From positions 1-15,173 of the forward strand of contig JAAYQY010000002.1 of the NCBI GenBank assembly GCA_012519125.1: a DNA stretch of 15,173 nucleotides, in the 5' to 3' direction. Source of the DNA: Spirochaetales bacterium (GTDB lineage Bacteria > Spirochaetota > Spirochaetia > Sphaerochaetales > Sphaerochaetaceae). Position numbers and translations under genes: made by a program. Below are positions 7,462-15,173 of this stretch, one piece after another. A model generated the notes under the pieces. The model had not been told where the DNA came from, did not search any database, and was given only the letters and a program-made list of their open reading frames with translations. Each line of letters starts with the position of its first letter. Within the stretch, counting starts at the first letter, position 1.

Positions 7462-10400
7462 TTAGCTCAGGAGACGCTCGAGCTTATAGGCTGCATCCAA
7501 CTCAGCCTCAAGCAGAACCTGTACGTAGCGCTCCACGCTGGACATCCCCTTGATTACCCCAAGTGAAAGTGCTGAGAGATAGATGATCTCCTGCATTGCC
7601 TCCTTCGTGTACCAGGTGGTTTCCTGATACTCATTCACCTGTGCGTACAAGCGAAGGCTTTTGTCCTCCAACAGAAGGGCCAGAATCTTCTTCGGATCTT
7701 CCATGGAGTCGTCAACCTGATAGGCGGCACTCGCAAGAATTGCAGCACTGTGGCAAGCCTTTCTGGAAAGGTCTTGGACAAAGCCCACCTCGCACAACTC
7801 CTTGCTGAAGAAACGGGAGAGCAGCAACTTGTCGCTGATGATCATTGCGTTTTCGATGGTGCAATCTTCACTGATGAAAGGCTTGAGGAAGAGAGATGCA
7901 GCCACTACTGCATCAAGCTCATCCATGATGGCTGAACCGTGGAGGAAGAATCGGGTTTTCGGATTACTGAAGAGGTTACCCCATCGCTTCACCTCATTGA
8001 GCATGAGGGCTGGGTTGATTTCCCTTGGCACGGCAGGCAAGGATTTCCGTGCGGCGGGATGGAGGTTTTCCACCACTGCTCCAAGGTGGGTGTATGCTTC
8101 TGCAAGGGTGAGGATGAGCTTGCGTTCGGTCCTGCTGGTAGCTTCCCCCTTGAGAATCTGACGAATCTGTTTGAAGAACTGCTCAGAGTGGAAGTTCTCC
8201 ATCGCCTTGTACACCGGCTTGAGCCTGAGAGCGAGAATCTCTTGCTCAAAGTTCTGTACACCCTGCTCTCCCATCTGCTCATAGAGGGCCAGATAAGTAC
8301 CATCGACATCCTCTACTTCACGGATATTGAGATAGACCTTGGTTTCAAACCCCCTCAGATGCAGGCTGAACCCTTCGTCATAGACCCTAAGGGAGGGTTT
8401 CATGTAGGTCAGGCCTTCAGAGAAGGAGTCATATATTACATAGCGCCTTCCCCCCAGGGTAAGACCCAGGGTTTCTGCAAGGCTGGTGGTTACTGTTCGC
8501 TTCTCTTCCCCATTCTTCTGCAATTTTGGTGCAGATGTTTTGATCCAGCCGCTCACTTCCTCATACTGGTTGTTGTAGAGGATGAGGGCTCGCTCGGTTT
8601 CGGTGCCGTTTACATAACAGAACGCAGACTGCTGAACCACACCATCCCGGTAGAGGTCGAAGAGGTTGAAAAAGTCGACTCCGCTGAACAGGTATCGCTT
8701 TTTCAGAAGTGGGAAAATTCGCTTGTAATGTTGATCGACAAGACCTTGGTTGGGTCTCTCATCCCAATACGCCCTGCGGTACTCCATGCCGTACTTTTCC
8801 CGATACCCTTCGATCTGCCCATGGCCGAACATCGGAAGGCCGGGCATGGTTGCCAAGAGGGTACAGATGCCGAAGTACTTATCCCCATCACCAAACTGGG
8901 CGATGGCTGTCTCTTCATCGGGATTGTTCATGAAGTTTACAAAGCGCTTGAGAATCTCAGGCTCGAAACTGATGGTGTTCTTGATTGTTTCGCGGTACTT
9001 CTGGTTTTCCTGGTTCTTGAGCATGTTCATGAAGGCACTGTTGTAGACACGGTGCATACCCAATGTCCTTACAAAGTAGCCCTCCATCATCCAGAAGGCC
9101 TCGGCGAGCAGGAGGGTGTCAGGAAGCTCCTCGTTGATTCTGTCCACCACCTCTCTCCAGAACTCTTGGGGGATTTTCTGGTTGAATTCAAGTTCATCCA
9201 TCCCATACTGGGCGCGCCCGGCAATATCTCCACCGTGGCCCGGCTTCGGGTACCAAAGACGTTGGATATGCTTCTTTGCCAAGGTCATTGCCGCATCGAA
9301 TCGGATGATCGGGAAGTTGGAAGCAACATGCTTAATCTGCTGATACACAGCCTCTCTCGTAGCTGGGTTGAGGAAATCAAGCTGTGCAGTATCATTCCAG
9401 GGCATCGAAGTCCCATCATTGCCATGGAAGATATAGGTGGTATTCCCGTTTCTCAAGTCCCTGCGTCGGAAGGTAACAGCCGCATCACTACGGTCGTAGT
9501 AATGGTCTTCGAGCTTGATTTCGATATCAGGGTTTGGTGAGAGATTCGGCCCATCATAGGTATAGGAGGGGAAGGGGGGGTAGCTTTGCTGGACAAAGTA
9601 CTCACTGTGATCAAAGACCCAGTCCCCATCAATTCCGCAGTGGTTGGGCACCATGTCGCTGGCAAGCCTGATCCCATAACGGGCACAGCGTTGGCGTAGG
9701 TTGTCCAACGCAGCCCAGCCACCAATTGCCTGGGCGATCTCATAGTTCTTCAATGAGTAGGCCGAAGCCTCGGCATCGGGGTTCCCGCACAGATTCTTAA
9801 TCTTCTTGCTTGCGCTGCTTCGTTCCCACAGCCCTATCAGCCACAAGGCGGTGAAGCCTCGCCCTGAAAGATTCTCCAACTCCTTGTCAGGAACCTTGTC
9901 CAAGGTGTCGATCGGATAGCCATACTCCTTGGAAAGCTGGTCAAGCCAGACCAAGGTTGACTTGGCCATCATAATGACATTGGGCATCCAGTTCTTGTCA
10001 GCCGTGAAGGCTTCATACTCATGGTCGAAAAGACTGTAGTCTGGGACTACCATCTCGGCTGACCCACCTCCGGCAGAGGGGAAATGGGGTTTGTCCTCCT
10101 CCTGCACAAAGTCGACAGCCCTGAGCAGAAGCGTTCTCAATGCCTGGGGTATCAGGTCGCCCCAAGCCTCAAGAATGTAGGAAATCTGGTCAAGCAAGGA
10201 GTCGGGATAGAGCCTGGCAGGGCGGGTAAGGAAGGAGAAGATATCCTCGTCACTGTTTCGCATCCCACTGGAAGCGCCTCCCATCAGGGCGGTCATCGCT
10301 TGGGCTGCTTTGGGAAAAGAGAGTCCTTCAGGAGCAATGAAAGGTTTTGCCGCCTTGGTGAGAGCAGGGTTCTCCATCATGACCTGATGGATGAAGTATC

Positions 10401-10797
10401 CTCGCAGAGACTCCTCGTAAAAGAAATCCAGAGGCAGTGACTGCTGGATCAACAGGGGAGAGGGGAACTCCTTCATATAGAAGGCCAACACCTCTTGGGC
10501 TGCATGATTCTTGTTGATCAATGCAGTAAGACGGGTGAAGAAATCCGGTTCATTGTCGGAGAGGTAGCGGGAGAGCACACTCTGGTAGAGTTGGTGAAGG
10601 ACGGCAGTGGCATGCAGTTTCCCCGACGACACCCAATCGTTGCCCCCTTTCGCCTTTACCTTGGAGTTGTAGATATGGGCGAGTTCGGTAGCCTGCTTGT
10701 ACAGTGCTCCAAGATCGGAATCCGAAGCAAACAACGCTGGAAAAAAATCCATTTCAGTCCTGGTACGAACTGAAATGCGAAAATCACGTGTAATCAA
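7462..10797 (-). CDS. Large GH13-family alpha-amylase-type glycoside hydrolase
   Basis: This is a probable intracellular alpha-glucan-active enzyme of family GH13; no signal peptide is seen and the exact substrate is unknown. The protein has 1,111 residues from a TTG start. A mostly helical N-terminal extension (1 to about 265) precedes the catalytic barrel (about 270-715), a beta-rich region (about 715-835) and a helical C-terminal extension of some 270 residues. GH13 region I is DMVPNH (381-386). Region II is IRFDAA with R499 and nucleophile D501. Region III is LLAEAF with acid/base E566. Region IV is NNPDE (624-628) with the stabilising Asp at 627, where Pro stands for the usual His. TTG 10797 is preferred because AGGGAGG lies six bases upstream and because the RDFRIS...FFPALF lead looks like a conserved beginning. 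ATG 10851 would precede the predicted transcription start, and ATG 10752 would remove the lead. It heads a likely operon with the transporter and membrane protein. Confidence 0.9.
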   Translation of the reverse strand: MITRDFRISVRTRTEMDFFPALFASDSDLGALYKQATELAHIYNSKVKAKGGNDWVSSGKLHATAVLHQLYQSVLSRYLSDNEPDFFTRLTALINKNHAAQEVLAFYMKEFPSPLLIQQSLPLDFFYEESLRGYFIHQVMMENPALTKAAKPFIAPEGLSFPKAAQAMTALMGGASSGMRNSDEDIFSFLTRPARLYPDSLLDQISYILEAWGDLIPQALRTLLLRAVDFVQEEDKPHFPSAGGGSAEMVVPDYSLFDHEYEAFTADKNWMPNVIMMAKSTLVWLDQLSKEYGYPIDTLDKVPDKELENLSGRGFTALWLIGLWERSSASKKIKNLCGNPDAEASAYSLKNYEIAQAIGGWAALDNLRQRCARYGIRLASDMVPNHCGIDGDWVFDHSEYFVQQSYPPFPSYTYDGPNLSPNPDIEIKLEDHYYDRSDAAVTFRRRDLRNGNTTYIFHGNDGTSMPWNDTAQLDFLNPATREAVYQQIKHVASNFPIIRFDAAMTLAKKHIQRLWYPKPGHGGDIAGRAQYGMDELEFNQKIPQEFWREVVDRINEELPDTLLLAEAFWMMEGYFVRTLGMHRVYNSAFMNMLKNQENQKYRETIKNTISFEPEILKRFVNFMNNPDEETAIAQFGDGDKYFGICTLLATMPGLPMFGHGQIEGYREKYGMEYRRAYWDERPNQGLVDQHYKRIFPLLKKRYLFSGVDFFNLFDLYRDGVVQQSAFCYVNGTETERALILYNNQYEEVSGWIKTSAPKLQKNGEEKRTVTTSLAETLGLTLGGRRYVIYDSFSEGLTYMKPSLRVYDEGFSLHLRGFETKVYLNIREVEDVDGTYLALYEQMGEQGVQNFEQEILALRLKPVYKAMENFHSEQFFKQIRQILKGEATSRTERKLILTLAEAYTHLGAVVENLHPAARKSLPAVPREINPALMLNEVKRWGNLFSNPKTRFFLHGSAIMDELDAVVAASLFLKPFISEDCTIENAMIISDKLLLSRFFSKELCEVGFVQDLSRKACHSAAILASAAYQVDDSMEDPKKILALLLEDKSLRLYAQVNEYQETTWYTKEAMQEIIYLSALSLGVIKGMSSVERYVQVLLEAELDAAYKLERLLS
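10750..10777 (-). repeat. Perfect 9-bp inverted repeat followed by T7 in the first amylase codons
   Basis: CATTTCAGT and its exact complement ACTGAAATG flank a 10-base spacer. On the coding (minus) strand the right arm is followed by GGATTTTTTTCC, so the transcript could form a hairpin followed by seven Us, like a weak intrinsic terminator. It starts 20 bases after the TTG codon and about 57 bases after the predicted transcription start. It could also be a repressor site. The stem is AT-rich and not very stable. Confidence 0.5.
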
Positions 10798-10803
10798 GTC
10801 ACG

Positions 10804-10810
10804 CCTCCCT
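10804..10810 (-). promoter_or_regulatory. Ribosome binding site that decides the amylase TTG start
   Basis: AGGGAGG on the minus strand lies six bases before TTG 10797. It is far stronger than anything before ATG 10851, and better than the CAGGA before ATG 10752. Confidence 0.7.
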
Positions 10811-10841
10811 GAGGGTGGTTCAATCCCTGAACGGTAAGTCC

Positions 10842-10870
10842 AGTATACCATGAGAGGCTTTGGTTGTAAC
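10842..10870 (-). promoter_or_regulatory. Sigma-70-type promoter of the amylase operon
   Basis: On the minus strand GTTACA (10870-10865, four of six) and TATACT (10847-10842, five of six) are 17 bp apart, and TGG before the -10 makes it an extended -10 (TGGTATACT). Transcription would begin near 10834-10835, giving a leader of about 37 bases to the TTG start. It sits in the 97-bp gap between the amylase start and the pth stop, so the amylase need not rely on read-through from pth. Confidence 0.6.
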
Positions 10871-10894: not shown

Positions 10895-11425
10895 TTAGAC
10901 TAATGTATTTGTTACTGGAAGTGAAGAAATATCACTATCAAGCATCGATGATGCAAGGTCTAGCACCAACGGAAGCGAGACTTCTTCTTCCGAAGTAAAC
11001 CGCTCTAGCACAAAGGAGGCAACTGACCCATGCTTCGGTCTGCCGATACCTATTCTCAGACGAAGGAACTGATCACTATTCACATGCTGCTTGATCGATT
11101 TCAACCCATTGTGCCCCTGCAGTCCTCCCCCAGCTTGCAATCGCAGCGTACCATAGGGAAGCTCCAGATCGTCATGGACCACCAGGATGTTGTTGGGTTC
11201 GAGATGGAAGAAATCAAGGGTGGCACGAACTGCCTTTCCACTCTCATTCATATAGGTCTGAGGCCTGAGCAGGCGGACAGGGCCTTCACTTGAGAGCTGT
11301 GCATGGAATTTCGTCGACCACGAGAGGTTGGGAAAGTGATGGTCACAGACCATCCAGGCGATGTTGTGCCTTGTTCTTGCATACTCCCTTCCGGGGTTGC
11401 CCAGGAATACCATTAGTTTTACCAT
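10895..11425 (-). CDS. pth: Peptidyl-tRNA hydrolase
   Basis: Pth is a cytoplasmic enzyme that releases tRNA from peptidyl-tRNA dropped by stalled ribosomes; it is usually essential. The 176-residue length is a little below the common 185-195. Catalytic and binding residues are all visible: N10 in LGNPGREY, catalytic H20 in TRHNIAW, N60 in PQTYMNESG, D85 in VVHDDLELP, and N106 in GLQGHNGLKS. RIGIGRPKHGSV (124-135) is the usual late motif. The C-terminal tail after about residue 145 is short and lacks the common basic end. Start ATG 11425 gives the typical MVKLMVFLGNPG beginning; the next ATG, 11413, would cut the first strand. No ribosome binding site is seen, and a -10-like hexamer lies five bases upstream. 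The gene is divergent from the homocysteine operon, with starts 35 bp apart. Confidence 0.96.
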   Translation of the reverse strand: MVKLMVFLGNPGREYARTRHNIAWMVCDHHFPNLSWSTKFHAQLSSEGPVRLLRPQTYMNESGKAVRATLDFFHLEPNNILVVHDDLELPYGTLRLQAGGGLQGHNGLKSIKQHVNSDQFLRLRIGIGRPKHGSVASFVLERFTSEEEVSLPLVLDLASSMLDSDISSLPVTNTLV

Positions 11426-11460: not shown

Positions 11461-11793
11461 ATGTATGTACTGGTCTTCTATGTACCGCAGTCCCATCTTG
11501 AGTCGGTGAAAGAGGCTGTCTTCTCCACAGGAGCAGGAACCATGGGCAACTACGCAAAGTGTTGCTTCCAAACCAAGGGAACAGGCCAATTCATGCCACT
11601 TTGTGGTAGTTCTCCGTTTCTGGGGACCGAAGGAATGCTTGCACAAGAAGAGGAGTGGCGGGTAGAATTGGTGGTCGACGAAGAGAATGCCGCCTTGGCA
11701 GTACAGGCTCTGCTTGACGCTCATCCCTATGAGGTTCCTGCCTATCATCTGATCCCAGTCTTGACCCTTGAGGGGGTCGAGTACAACGAATAG
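11461..11793 (+). CDS. Small stand-alone YqfO/NIF3-insert-like protein (COG3323 type)
   Basis: This 110-residue soluble protein resembles the PII/CutA-like domain inserted in YqfO (NIF3, DUF34) proteins, here as a free polypeptide. Recognisable parts are the VFYVPQSHLESVKEAVF start, GAGTMGNYAKCCF (24-36), TKGTGQF (38-44) and the late HPYEVPAY motif (about 87-94). The rest of NIF3, with its dinuclear metal site, is absent. Molecular function is unknown. The fold relates to small trimeric ligand- or metal-binding proteins, but no ligand can be named. A GAGGAG site lies seven bases before the ATG. The stop overlaps the ribosome binding site of the DUF39 gene eight bases on, so it is the first gene of the homocysteine/methionine operon. 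That position suggests a helper or sensing role in sulfur or methionine metabolism, which is inference. Confidence 0.8.
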   Translation: MYVLVFYVPQSHLESVKEAVFSTGAGTMGNYAKCCFQTKGTGQFMPLCGSSPFLGTEGMLAQEEEWRVELVVDEENAALAVQALLDAHPYEVPAYHLIPVLTLEGVEYNE

Positions 11794-11801: not shown

Positions 11802-12962
11802 ATGGCAAAGACGATTGCCCAGATCAACGAGAAAATCAAGGCGGGAAGCGTGGTGGTGGTAAGCGCCGAAGCCTTCTCAAAAATGGCCAAGGAAACGCCG
11901 ATTTCCACCCTCAGCGAGGAAGTGGATATTGTCACAACAGCCACCTTCGGCCCCATGTGTTCTTCCGGCGCCATCATCAACTTCGGGCACTGGTCTCCAG
12001 GCATCAGGATGGAAGAGATCAGTCTCAACGGGGTGAGTGCCTATGAGGGCTTGGCTGCGGTGGACACTTACATTGGAGCAACCGCCGAATCGAAATTCGA
12101 TCCCACCTATGGGGGAGCGAATGTGATCGAAGACCTCATCGCTGGCAAGGATGTGCGACTCCATGCCCGGGGGAAGGGAACCGATTGCTATCCGACCAAG
12201 GAGATCGATACATGGATCAACAAGGATACGGTCAACGAATTCTACCTGTTCAATCCCCGCAACGCCTATCAGAACTATGCTGCAGCAACCAACAGCACCA
12301 GCCGCATCAAGTACACCTATATGGGCAGTCTCCTTCCACGGATGGGCAACATCACCTACTCCACCAGTGGGGAGTTGAGCCCCTTGCTCAATGATCCCTA
12401 CCTCAGGACCATCGGTCTGGGAACAAGAATCTTCCTTGGTGGTGGTGAAGGGTTTGTGGTGTGGAACGGGACGCAGTTCAACACCCGTCGTGAGCGCAAC
12501 AGCATGGGTATCCCCAAGCTTCCCGGTGCCACCTTGGCGGTGCTCGGTGATGCACGGCAGATGTCAACCGATTTCATCCGTTCCGCCTACTATGAGAAAT
12601 ATGGTGTCTCGATGTTTGTCGGCATAGGCATTCCCATCCCCGTCCTGGACGAGCGGATGGCTCAAAGTCTTGCCATCAGCAACGACCAGATTGAGACCAC
12701 CATCCTTGACTATGGCCAGGAGAACCATCCCAGTATGGGTACGGTTACCTATGCCCAGCTTGCCAGTGGGTCTGTCACCCTCTCCGACGGCAAGCAGATC
12801 AAGACAGCTCCTCTCTCTTCCTTGGCAAAGGCTCGAGAAATTGCCGATATCCTTGCCGATAGGATCAGAAGCAGGAAGTTCTTCCTGACCGAACCGGTTG
12901 CCATGTTCCCCAAGGACAGTTTTGTCAAACCCCTGGTACATCGCGAAGGAGGTGCACAATGA
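11802..12962 (+). CDS. Homocysteine biosynthesis protein, DUF39/HcyBio family
   Basis: DUF39 proteins, together with a NIL-ferredoxin, are needed in Methanosarcina acetivorans and Desulfovibrio for a route that makes homocysteine from aspartate semialdehyde and sulfide without an acylhomoserine intermediate. The reaction mechanism is not settled. This 386-residue cytoplasmic protein is a single DUF39 domain and lacks the C-terminal CBS domains of some archaeal members. Two cysteines sit in conserved-looking contexts, C53 in TFGPMCSSGA and C129 in KGTDCYPTKE, and are candidates for the persulfide or sulfur-transfer residues. Glycine-rich stretches occur at GLGTRIFLGGGEGFV (205-219) and VGIGIPIPVLDE (273-284). 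The late segment about 310-336 (GTVTYAQLASGSV) is also typical. The start follows a TAGGAG site, and the 3' end overlaps the ferredoxin gene by four bases (ATGA). Neighbouring genes for the ferredoxin, UPF0280 and MetH strongly support the call. Confidence 0.92.
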   Translation: MAKTIAQINEKIKAGSVVVVSAEAFSKMAKETPISTLSEEVDIVTTATFGPMCSSGAIINFGHWSPGIRMEEISLNGVSAYEGLAAVDTYIGATAESKFDPTYGGANVIEDLIAGKDVRLHARGKGTDCYPTKEIDTWINKDTVNEFYLFNPRNAYQNYAAATNSTSRIKYTYMGSLLPRMGNITYSTSGELSPLLNDPYLRTIGLGTRIFLGGGEGFVVWNGTQFNTRRERNSMGIPKLPGATLAVLGDARQMSTDFIRSAYYEKYGVSMFVGIGIPIPVLDERMAQSLAISNDQIETTILDYGQENHPSMGTVTYAQLASGSVTLSDGKQIKTAPLSSLAKAREIADILADRIRSRKFFLTEPVAMFPKDSFVKPLVHREGGAQ

Positions 12963-13372
12963 GACGCAGATACGCGCTTCGCTTCTCCCCCGCTCTGGTG
13001 GAACAGCCGATCGTCAGCAAGCTCGCCAGAATCTACGATGTGGATATCAACATCCTCAATGCAGATGTAGCAAGCGGTCGCGGAGGTAAACTCATTGTTG
13101 AACTGGTGGGAACCGATGAGAACCTCGACAAGAGCGTACACTATCTCTCTGAGGTTGGTGTCCTTGTCTCCGAGATGGTCAAGGAGTTGCTCTTCAAGCA
13201 GGAAGCCTGCATCCATTGCGGAGCATGTACTGCTGTCTGTTCCCCAAAGGCCCTCTCGATGGACAACTCTGCAAAGCTCGTCTTTGATGTTTCGCTGTGC
13301 GTAGTTTGTGGTCTTTGCACCCAAGCCTGTCCTCTACGCTTGTTTGAGGTCTCGCACGAGCGAGAGGCCTGA
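12959..13372 (+). CDS. NIL-domain 2x[4Fe-4S] ferredoxin of homocysteine synthesis
   Basis: This 137-residue protein has an N-terminal NIL domain (about 1-75), a small ACT-like fold otherwise found on MetN methionine transporter ATPases. A bacterial-type ferredoxin domain follows, with two motifs for [4Fe-4S] clusters: C84, C87, C90, C94 (CIHCGACTAVCSP) and C114, C117, C120, C124 (CVVCGLCTQACP). In the cross pattern of such ferredoxins the last cysteine of each motif serves the other cluster. Proteins of this build accompany DUF39 in methanogens and sulfate reducers and are thought to supply electrons or sulfur chemistry for homocysteine formation. The NIL part may sense methionine or hold the partner, which is inference. 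A near-perfect AAGGAGGTG precedes the ATG, and the start overlaps the DUF39 stop as ATGA, so synthesis is probably coupled at matched levels. The UPF0280 gene begins two bases after the stop. Confidence 0.93.
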   Translation: MRRRYALRFSPALVEQPIVSKLARIYDVDINILNADVASGRGGKLIVELVGTDENLDKSVHYLSEVGVLVSEMVKELLFKQEACIHCGACTAVCSPKALSMDNSAKLVFDVSLCVVCGLCTQACPLRLFEVSHEREA

Positions 13373-13374
13373 CC

Positions 13375-14133
13375 ATGTACGAGAAGCGAACCTATCGTCA
13401 GAACATGGGAGCAGGTCGCTTCACGAGCATCTCCCTTTCCGTTCAGGAAAGTGATCTTTGGATCGGCTGGACCGGGTCTGTCGACCAGGCTCAGCTGATC
13501 AAAGCAGCTACTGCCCTTGTACGCCGATTGCGGCTGGAGCTGATCGGTCACCCTGATTCCCGTTTTCTGACCAGCTTGGTGCCGCTTGCAGGGCATGACT
13601 ATCCAAGCGAACTGGCCAATGCTATGCAAAGTGCTTCCTTGCGTGCCGGCACCGGACCCATTGCTGCGGTAGCCGGTGCAATCGCCCAAGCGGTAGGAAA
13701 GGAACTGAAGCAGAAGTTCTCACTCGACGAGATAGTCGTAGAGAATGGGGGAGATCTCTATGTTGATGTCCTCAAACCCCTCCCGATAAGGCTATTTGCA
13801 CCTACAAGTTCGTTTTCAGGGAAGCTTTCGGTAGTGGTTTCCCCTTCTGATTGTCCTCTGGGGGTTTGCACATCCTCAGCAAGGATCGGCCATTCACTGA
13901 GCTTCGGGCGGGCAGATGCAGTACTGGTGGCAGCAACAGATGCCGCTCTTGCCGATGCTTGGGCAACCGCAGGTTGCAATCAGGTACAGACAAAAAGCGA
14001 TGCGCAGCGCGTCTGTACAAAGCTTTCTTCCCAGGAGGGAATCCTTTCCGTCCTGGTTGTCATTGAAGATACACTGGCCATCGGTGGCCGGCTGGAGGTT
14101 TGCACCCACGATGAACAGAACCCAATACCTTGA
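13375..14133 (+). CDS. UPF0280 (COG2122) ApbE-like protein of homocysteine synthesis
   Basis: The 252-residue protein belongs to UPF0280/COG2122, whose fold is related to ApbE flavin transferases. Typical segments are GTGPIAAVAGAIAQAVG (92-108), VENGGDLYVDV (122-132), GVCTSSARIGHSLSFGRAD (163-181) and the helix ATDAALADAWATAGCN (187-202). In Desulfovibrio and Methanosarcina, genetics tie this family to the DUF39/NIL-ferredoxin route to homocysteine, but its reaction is unknown. The ApbE resemblance suggests handling of a flavin or another nucleotide cofactor; that is inference. No clear ApbE-type flavinylation target (D-x-x-T/S-G-A-T) is visible in the DUF39 or ferredoxin proteins. The gene starts two bases after the ferredoxin stop, behind GAGAGG, and its last 23 bp overlap metH. 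The adjacency with DUF39, ferredoxin and methionine synthase is strong context. Confidence 0.92.
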   Translation: MYEKRTYRQNMGAGRFTSISLSVQESDLWIGWTGSVDQAQLIKAATALVRRLRLELIGHPDSRFLTSLVPLAGHDYPSELANAMQSASLRAGTGPIAAVAGAIAQAVGKELKQKFSLDEIVVENGGDLYVDVLKPLPIRLFAPTSSFSGKLSVVVSPSDCPLGVCTSSARIGHSLSFGRADAVLVAATDAALADAWATAGCNQVQTKSDAQRVCTKLSSQEGILSVLVVIEDTLAIGGRLEVCTHDEQNPIP

Positions 14134-15173
14134 GCATCTGCTCGCACAGCGCATAGTCCTGCTTGATGGCGCGATGGGCACTATGATCCAAAGCCAGGAC
14201 CTTGATACGGATGATTATACCTTTGAAGACCGAGTGGCCCTTGGATGCAATGAGGTGCTCAACCTCACCCGAGGCGATGTAATCTACCAGATCCACCGTG
14301 ACTACCTGAACAGTGGTGCAGACATCATTGAAACCAACACGTTCTGTGCCAACGCGTTCAATTTGGCTGAGTACGGTCTCTCCGATGAGGTGGAGACGAT
14401 CATCCAGGCAGCCTGTGAAATCGCTCGTGAAGCGGCAGCGGACCATGAGGCGAACACAGAAGGATACGCCTTTGTAGCGGGAAGCATCGGCCCTACCAAC
14501 CGCTCGCTCGCCTTCTCTCCCAAGGTGGAGGACCCAGCCTACCGCCAGAGTGATTACCCTGCCTTTCTGGCGATGTACCGCCAACAGGTGAAAGCCCTGC
14601 TTGAGGGAGGGGTTGATCTTCTGCTCATCGAGACCGTCTTCGATACCCTGGTGGCCAAGAGTGCCATCCAGGCGTGTGTTGAGGAGATGGAAGTGCAGAA
14701 CCGCAAGGTCCCCATCATGGTGAGTGTGACCTTCAGTGACCAGAGCGGAAGAACGCTCAGTGGGCAGACCCTCTCTGCCTTTGTGACCAGCCTCAGTGCA
14801 TACCCTCTGTTCAGCCTAGGGCTCAACTGTTCCACCGGGCCAGAGGAGATGCTTCCCCTGATCGAAGAGCTCTCCACGATCTGTCCGTTTTACGTGAGTG
14901 CTCACCCTAATGCAGGGTTTCCCGACAAGGAGGGCAACTATACGCTTACTGCCAAGCAGATGGCCGAGCAGTTGCTTGGACTTCTGAAAGCAGGAAGGCT
15001 GAATATCGTAGGTGGTTGCTGCGGCACCACCGCCGAACACATCAAGGCGCTCAAGCAAGCCTCTGCACAGGGCACAAGCAGGCCTCTTCCTGCCAGAGAA
15101 CCTGTGCTGCAGCTTTGCGGCTTGGAAACAGCGCAGAGGATGGCTGGAAACCTGCTGGTGGTCGGCGAGCGTA
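14111..15173 (+). CDS. metH: Cobalamin-dependent methionine synthase, N-terminal part (cut by window end)
   Basis: MetH methylates homocysteine to methionine using cobalamin and methyltetrahydrofolate. The window holds the first 354 residues, in an open frame to the edge. They form the homocysteine-binding, zinc-dependent barrel: LLDGAMGTMIQ (17-27), GADIIETNTF (69-78), GSIGPTNRSL (124-133), and the three zinc-binding cysteines C240 (GLNCSTG), C303 and C304 (VGGCCGTT). The last visible residues, LLVVGER, match the start of the pterin-binding domain. A full-length MetH is therefore more likely than a stand-alone homocysteine methyltransferase such as MmuM. The cobalamin-binding and activation domains lie outside the window. 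The ATG at 14111 sits inside UPF0280 with a 23-bp overlap; GGAGG occurs 12 bases upstream, a rather long spacing, so expression may depend on coupling. It takes the product of the three preceding genes. Confidence 0.94.
   Translation, partial: MNRTQYLEHLLAQRIVLLDGAMGTMIQSQDLDTDDYTFEDRVALGCNEVLNLTRGDVIYQIHRDYLNSGADIIETNTFCANAFNLAEYGLSDEVETIIQAACEIAREAAADHEANTEGYAFVAGSIGPTNRSLAFSPKVEDPAYRQSDYPAFLAMYRQQVKALLEGGVDLLLIETVFDTLVAKSAIQACVEEMEVQNRKVPIMVSVTFSDQSGRTLSGQTLSAFVTSLSAYPLFSLGLNCSTGPEEMLPLIEELSTICPFYVSAHPNAGFPDKEGNYTLTAKQMAEQLLGLLKAGRLNIVGGCCGTTAEHIKALKQASAQGTSRPLPAREPVLQLCGLETAQRMAGNLLVVGER

Follow-up and report, generated by a model that had tools for sequence, protein, structure and literature searches.

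An L-aspartate semialdehyde sulfurtransferase cassette predicted in the metH-metF unit of Sphaerochaetaceae, and its coexistence with metY-metA

The stretch of DNA analysed here (the window, 15,173 nucleotides from a Spirochaetales bacterium of the family Sphaerochaetaceae, contig JAAYQY010000002.1 of assembly GCA_012519125.1) carries near its right end three contiguous genes, for a HcyBio protein, a NIL-domain ferredoxin (NIL-Fd) and a COG2122 protein, which run into the start of metH. The best explanation, to which we give a probability of about 0.82, is that this cassette encodes an L-aspartate semialdehyde sulfurtransferase acting beside the acylhomoserine enzymes MetA and MetY in the majority of the genus and probably in this bacterium. 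The window is the entire contig C230 of a metagenome-assembled genome (MAG) of 2.23 Mb in 457 contigs, 81.9% complete and 2.4% contaminated. The nearest named relatives of its HcyBio are the Spirochaetales MAG Spiro_05 at 99%, a Spirochaetia MAG at 97% and Sphaerochaeta-type records at 74-87%. The family sample comprised 119 genomes and the genus subset 26, the own genome counted. HcyBio scored above cut-off in 25 of the 119, namely 23 of the 26 genus members together with G020 and G038, which belong to two other genera; a 26th match, in G091, was weak and fell under the cut-off.

The HcyBio gene (DUF39/COG1900a; 11802..12962, forward strand) encodes 386 residues, the proposed sulfur-transfer subunit, and matches PF01837 with 475.7 bits (cut-off 26.2) over model positions 1-349 of 349; no CBS domain is present. 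Cys53 is kept in 59 of 60 aligned homologues and Cys129 in all 60, and they match Cys54 and Cys131 of MA1821, the HcyBio subunit of Methanosarcina acetivorans, by position only, the alignment having been built without the MA1821 sequence. No HcyBio relative of solved structure was found by sequence search, and a PDB search with the HcyBio alignment as query returned nothing under E 0.04, mostly nanobodies. The second gene (12959..13372, forward) encodes the proposed electron-donor subunit, a NIL domain (PF09383, 61.1 bits) with two 4Fe-4S motifs (Fer4), all eight ferredoxin cysteines of which are invariant across 54 aligned sequences. The third (13375..14133, forward) encodes an ApbE-related accessory protein of the UPF0280/COG2122 family, whose match to NF003323/PRK04334 (227.8 bits over residues 2-243 of 252) lies below the cut-off of 271, as five of five other COG2122 homologues likewise scored below every cut-off. 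It matches the solved structure PDB 2o34 (E 2.2e-24), and its Cys165, within the motif GVCTSSARIGHS, is kept in 94% of 49 aligned sequences and in 2o34 as well. The Pfam, NCBIfam and PDB matches agree with the first-pass annotation, made from the letters of the window, as to the four families, their order and their common strand. The spacing of four bases or less that it gave holds inside the cassette, where HcyBio and NIL-Fd overlap by 4 bases and NIL-Fd and COG2122 stand 2 bases apart; it does not extend to metH, which overlaps COG2122 by 23.

A single homologue departs from the conservation of Cys53, that of a cyanobacterial Halothece MAG (L053:2589-3764). Since Glu replaces the Cys53 equivalent there, cyanobacterial members of the HcyBio family may differ in function.

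The route was assigned because of the family matches, the conserved cysteines and the presence of asd and metF, and because of the genetics in Desulfovibrio vulgaris and M. acetivorans (PMC5764234, PMC12068725). The own genome has an asd gene (L106, TIGR00978 342.6 bits, cut-off 301.2), its other PF02774 match being argC and not asd. It was reported that MA1821 needs Cys54 and is helped by Cys131, that a conserved cysteine occurs as a persulfide in vivo, and that a thioaldehyde is proposed to be reduced by the ferredoxin subunit; the NIL domain is said to bind methionine, and the loading of sulfur onto HcyBio by COG2122 is a published suggestion (PMC12068725, PMC5764234). By analogy with MA1821, HcyBio would pass sulfur, held as a persulfide on Cys53, to L-aspartate semialdehyde, and the intermediate would be reduced to homocysteine with electrons from the NIL-ferredoxin. 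COG2122 would be a dispensable accessory aiding sulfur delivery, and MetH would methylate the homocysteine using methyl-tetrahydrofolate from MetF, the cassette working beside acylhomoserine sulfhydrylation by MetA-MetY in most genus members and probably in this one. We infer in this way the activity, the role of each protein and the use of both routes; the earlier proposal that the genes encode an aspartate semialdehyde and sulfide route feeding MetH seems well supported by the families, the conserved cysteines and asd.

The HcyBio unit might instead act on some other aldehyde, as methanogenesis marker 16 (MMP16; COG1900d, coenzyme M synthase) acts on sulfoacetaldehyde, the link to methionine being merely positional. 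The COG1900 family is reported to include members with other substrates, and MMP16 resembles the present system in its HcyBio domain with ferredoxin and in its chemistry of aldehyde plus sulfur (PMC12068725). MMP16 is also the sole NCBIfam match of the window's HcyBio; the score of 120.5, however, is far below the cut-off of 364, Cys53 and Cys129 stand at the positions of COG1900a Cys54 and Cys131, which are described as different in MMP16 (PMC12068725), and in Sphaerochaetaceae the cassette sits within the metH-metF unit. A function on another aldehyde is thus very improbable.

The group had been described as complete and as a compact set of four genes ending with metH, and both descriptions had to be revised. 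The metH gene, for the cobalamin-dependent methionine synthase (14111..15172, forward), is broken off by the contig end after the first 354 of about 1170 codons; this start contains the homocysteine S-methyltransferase domain (PF02574, 306.3 bits) and matches TIGR02082. The remainder was found on another contig of the MAG, C423, which has 14 bases in common with the window end and encodes MetH residues 351-1170 in Spiro_05 numbering (820 residues, locus L107; TIGR02082 positions 346-1181, B12-activation domain PF02965 151.7 bits). Over the gene split by the contig break, MetH has its domains for homocysteine, folate, B12 and activation. On C423 metH is followed by metF (TIGR00676 297.3 bits, cut-off 293.7) and then by a convergent nth; on the other side, 8 bases separate HcyBio from the end of an upstream COG3323 gene.

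The usual unit of Sphaerochaeta is accordingly COG3323-HcyBio-NILFd-COG2122-metH-metF. Fifteen of the 23 HcyBio-positive genus genomes show the complete six-gene order on a single contig, and five have the unit split across two contigs (the own genome, G115, G098, G103 and G079, the last with NIL-Fd, COG2122 and the metH start unseen). The other three (G023, G055 and G107) have no COG2122. The full six-gene order was found in G020 and G038 too. Given the order kept in the genus, the gene set is not a chance arrangement, and the gene spacing suggests co-transcription as an operon. In G103 COG2122 lies in two frames (L126:645-1359), which points to a frameshift error or to decay of the gene.

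Outside the family the cassette is common. Among 40 loci (L015-L055 minus L052, the fragment L056 uncounted), at least 33 have a separate NIL-ferredoxin and at least 34 have COG2122 beside HcyBio, these being lower bounds as several loci stop soon after HcyBio. A metH-like gene directly adjoins COG2122 in only one of the 40, L017. A fusion of HcyBio and NIL-Fd in one Clostridia MAG (L046, 41-1597) was set aside as probably an indel, because relatives 82-86% identical carry separate proteins of 382-384 residues.

The first-pass annotation held that this route takes the place of acylhomoserine in methionine synthesis, a claim that the genome does not support. The MAG encodes on its contig C405 a MetY of 446 residues (TIGR01326 623.7 bits, cut-off 495.1), the gene of which overlaps metA; the MetA of 309 residues fits MetA_acetyl best, at 454.4 and just under the cut-off of 460.5, and MetA_succinyl at 438 (cut-off 495). 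C405 is 93.9% identical to G109 and 84-88% to G002, and the window 95.1% and 86.9%, respectively; since the two contigs are similarly close to these genomes, contamination is unlikely and C405 belongs most likely to the same organism. Of the 23 HcyBio-positive genus genomes 20 have MetA, and those that do not are three MAGs 80-86% complete. MetX was above cut-off in none of the 119 family genomes, but none of 14 control genomes passed either, so that this negative carries little weight; the own genome gave no MetX match.

That the cassette could be the sole homocysteine route in this bacterium is suggested by homoserine dehydrogenase (Hom), which was not found in the own, 82% complete MAG, and by G020 and G038, which look like sole users. 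A sole route would leave the genome free of metA or metX and of metY or metB; the overlapping pair on C405, the frequency of MetA in the genus, and the finding of Hom in 24 of the 26 genus genomes when the own MAG is so incomplete all speak against it, and we hold it to be unlikely. The genome search proposed with the annotation thus yielded metA, metY and asd, and neither hom nor metX. A complete acylhomoserine or transsulfuration pathway, together with no methionine phenotype on loss of the cassette, had been named as what would contradict the proposal: the sequence half is nearly there, hom excepted.

Neither MetA nor a MetX match was found in G020 (99% complete) or G038 (95%), both of which have the cassette. 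Nor is MetY their best PF01053 match: in G038 this match scores highest as an alanine/glutamate racemase (589.9, cut-off 629), and in G020 it belongs to the cysteine desulfurase family. Judged by these best matches, both genomes seem to depend on the HcyBio route alone, and the cassette can therefore be the only recognisable route. Three states occur in the family: HcyBio only, both routes, and MetY-MetA only, the last in G075, G095 and G111.

The history of the cassette can be followed at its empty sites. In G075 and G095 of the genus, and in G017 and G015, the order pth / COG3323-metH-metF / nth is found without the cassette; G111, also of the genus, has an empty site with the contig end inside metH, and G033 has COG3323-metH without the cassette. 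In these six genomes, all without HcyBio, COG3323 is directly beside metH. Because the empty sites join COG3323 to metH, the three genes make up a cassette that can be removed from between the two. In a quick HcyBio tree of 65 rows the Sphaerochaetaceae proteins form one side of a branch with a Shimodaira-Hasegawa-like approximate likelihood ratio (SH-aLRT) support of 99; 3 of the 26 family rows (P0034, P0046, P0050) were put in the family by identity. A MetH+MetF tree of 22 genomes was rooted on G015/G017; in it G075 and G095 nest inside the genus, and a single clade of the four empty-site genomes, G111 and G033 being left out, was rejected by the approximately unbiased (AU) test (p 2.9e-6). 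With G015/G017 as outgroup, this rejection indicates that G075 and G095 lost the cassette. Most likely the cassette has a single origin in the family and was placed between COG3323 and metH-metF in an ancestor of Sphaerochaeta and the two other genera. On the simplest history, in the direction of gain and loss that we infer, the cassette would have been gained once before Sphaerochaeta, G038 and G020 diverged, and later lost once as a whole; the alternative is an older origin with more losses.

G004 and G024 (L131 and L132), which belong to the genus of G038 and are without HcyBio, have COG3323 beside a short gene with 31-32% identity to the N-terminal domain of MetH.

The need for all three families, implied by the first-pass annotation, is challenged by relatives without COG2122. 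The single-contig genomes G023 and G055 and the MAG of L004, G107, form one clade (support 100/99) that has lost COG2122, no match to it having been obtained there by protein or profile search. The gap between NIL-Fd and metH measures 174, 115 and 49 bases in G023, G055 and G107, and no COG2122 remnant above shuffles was detected in it (33, 69 and 26 of 100 as good, respectively). Selection was compared by the ratio of nonsynonymous to synonymous substitution rates (dN/dS) over 11 pairs for HcyBio, 10 for NIL-Fd (one pair undefined) and 7 for COG2122. It was 0.02-0.10 for HcyBio, 0.025-0.065 for NIL-Fd and 0.11-0.20 for COG2122, the fastest of the cassette; COG3323, outside the cassette, reached up to 0.26 in one pair. 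In the COG2122-less clade HcyBio gave 0.025-0.039 and NIL-Fd 0.029-0.050 (three pairs each), dS being near saturation in some pairs; with this reservation both proteins are still strongly constrained there, as elsewhere. Candidate compensating substitutions were limited to residues 17 and 367 of HcyBio (25 sequences), with none in NIL-Fd (22 sequences), and gave no clear signature.

These data bear on the idea that the cassette serves as a back-up, redundant or in decay, with the flux going via MetA-MetY and the loss of COG2122 as the first step of decay. It is favoured by the absence of the whole cassette in G075, G095 and G111 and of COG2122 in the clade just described, by a stop in metF of G023 and by the faster evolution of COG2122. 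The low dN/dS of HcyBio and NIL-Fd in the COG2122-less clade, read with the same caution as to saturation, and their intact cysteines there argue against decay, which is therefore rather doubtful. In all three COG2122-less genomes MetA is adjoined by a full-length PF01053 protein, and because of this redundancy a weaker pathway could be masked.

The metF of G023, at the end of the COG2122-less unit, contains one in-frame TGA at residue 202 (L095:11024-11026). Selenocysteine was considered and rejected, as the residue is variable (A, S, C, K) and the downstream RNA folds no better than shuffles, a selenocysteine tRNA being unsearched; a nonsense change or a sequence error is likelier.

The HcyBio of two Thermotogota MAGs, of which one bears the label Mesoaciditogaceae, is fused at its C terminus to a 2[4Fe-4S] ferredoxin and shows no NIL match (L015:1753-3081 and L016:2135-3478), which suggests that the NIL domain may be optional as well. 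After this fusion L015 and L016 have COG2122, metF and a metH-like gene at 26-28% identity. It is tempting to speculate that the catalytic core is HcyBio with a 2[4Fe-4S] ferredoxin, COG2122 and NIL both being optional modules, in G023/G055/G107 and in some Thermotogota respectively; we regard the chances of this as evenly balanced. D. vulgaris is reported to require COG2122 with 1 mM sulfide, whereas M. acetivorans does without it at high sulfide (PMC5764234). If true, a core with modules would settle this conflict between the requirement in D. vulgaris and one at low sulfide only in M. acetivorans.

Several points weigh against the sulfurtransferase interpretation and the history and modules attached to it. 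Given the redundancy with metY-metA, the cassette may contribute much or little to methionine synthesis, and the route was assigned from sequence; HcyBio-family proteins with other substrates have been described, for example MMP16 for coenzyme M in methanogens (PMC12068725). The MetH+MetF tree rests on a chosen outgroup and has several long branches, and a quick MetH tree, midpoint-drawn, sets G020 beside G015/G017. COG2122 is kept in 19 of the 26 genus genomes, under purifying selection there (dN/dS 0.11-0.20), and it was required in D. vulgaris (PMC5764234). Moreover, G023 bears the cassette together with the stop codon in metF.

Among known systems, MA1821-MA1822 of M. acetivorans likewise combine HcyBio/COG1900a with a NIL-ferredoxin, are neighbours by locus number, have the two conserved cysteines and coexist with a second methionine route (PMC12068725). 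They differ in the CBS domain reported for MA1821 (PMC12068725), and in COG2122, there MA1715 and, to judge by its locus number, located elsewhere; here it lies inside the cassette with metH-metF next. D. vulgaris Miyazaki F has the same three families (DvMF_1464, DvMF_0262 and DvMF_0044), and mutant fitness there shows that homocysteine formation depends on them; by locus numbers the genes are scattered, and the authors are reported to have seen no standard route (PMC5764234). In contrast, the genes studied here are contiguous and continue into metH-metF, in a genome that also has a MetA-MetY pair. MetA-MetY also makes homocysteine from sulfide in the same genome, and differs in proceeding via homoserine and pyridoxal phosphate (PLP) chemistry and in its separate contig. 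No literature linking Sphaerochaeta to the cassette-encoded route was found in a search covering few subscription papers. The pathway is already known; within the same coverage no published account was met of the six-gene unit, its empty sites, the coexistence with metY-metA or the clade without COG2122.

Sphaerochaetaceae offer at one locus a natural series of no cassette, the three-gene cassette and the cassette without COG2122, and genomes with and without the MetA-MetY back-up. The need for COG2122, on which the published genetics disagree, can be tested in this series by comparison of relatives. The presence of HcyBio genes is, as a warning, no proof of a sole route.

The first gene of the unit (11461..11793, forward) encodes a stand-alone COG3323 protein (YqfO/NIF3 insert-domain) of 110 residues, which aligns solely with the insert of PDB 2gx8 (residues 164-260, E 5.5e-21). 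Its HPYE at residues 88-91 is invariant in 21 aligned sequences, and this motif is named for DUF34 subgroups D-G (PMC8469502); with the YqfO insert domain alone and HPYE present, the protein has the features of DUF34 subgroup D. COG3323 was rejected as a partner of HcyBio or fourth pathway protein: it occurs in 25 of 25 HcyBio genomes but also in 19 of the 94 other family genomes, and it adjoins metH where the cassette is absent. A general link of COG3323 with metH was not supported either. In a phylum survey 67 of 392 genomes matched, and the 30 best-matching loci were compared, 21 of them outside the family; in none of these 21 were metH, metF or HcyBio found in the flanks of up to 1.5 kb that were covered (BLAST with the own proteins), and the family genome G022 is also without metH there.

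No riboswitch match at the Rfam gathering score was obtained in 8 and 5 further sources, and one sub-threshold match to a viral snoRNA was taken as chance; a promoter scan was uninformative, with 1 site against 0.5 expected by chance. COG3323 diverges across 35 bases from pth (10895..11425, reverse strand; peptidyl-tRNA hydrolase, PF01195 186.5 bits), which forms the left border of the locus and is constant in position among the HcyBio-positive genus genomes examined. Beside pth, in the window (7462-10851) and in the compared Sphaerochaeta loci, lies the gene of a 1129-residue protein, the sole Pfam match of which is an alpha-amylase domain (residues 325-685).

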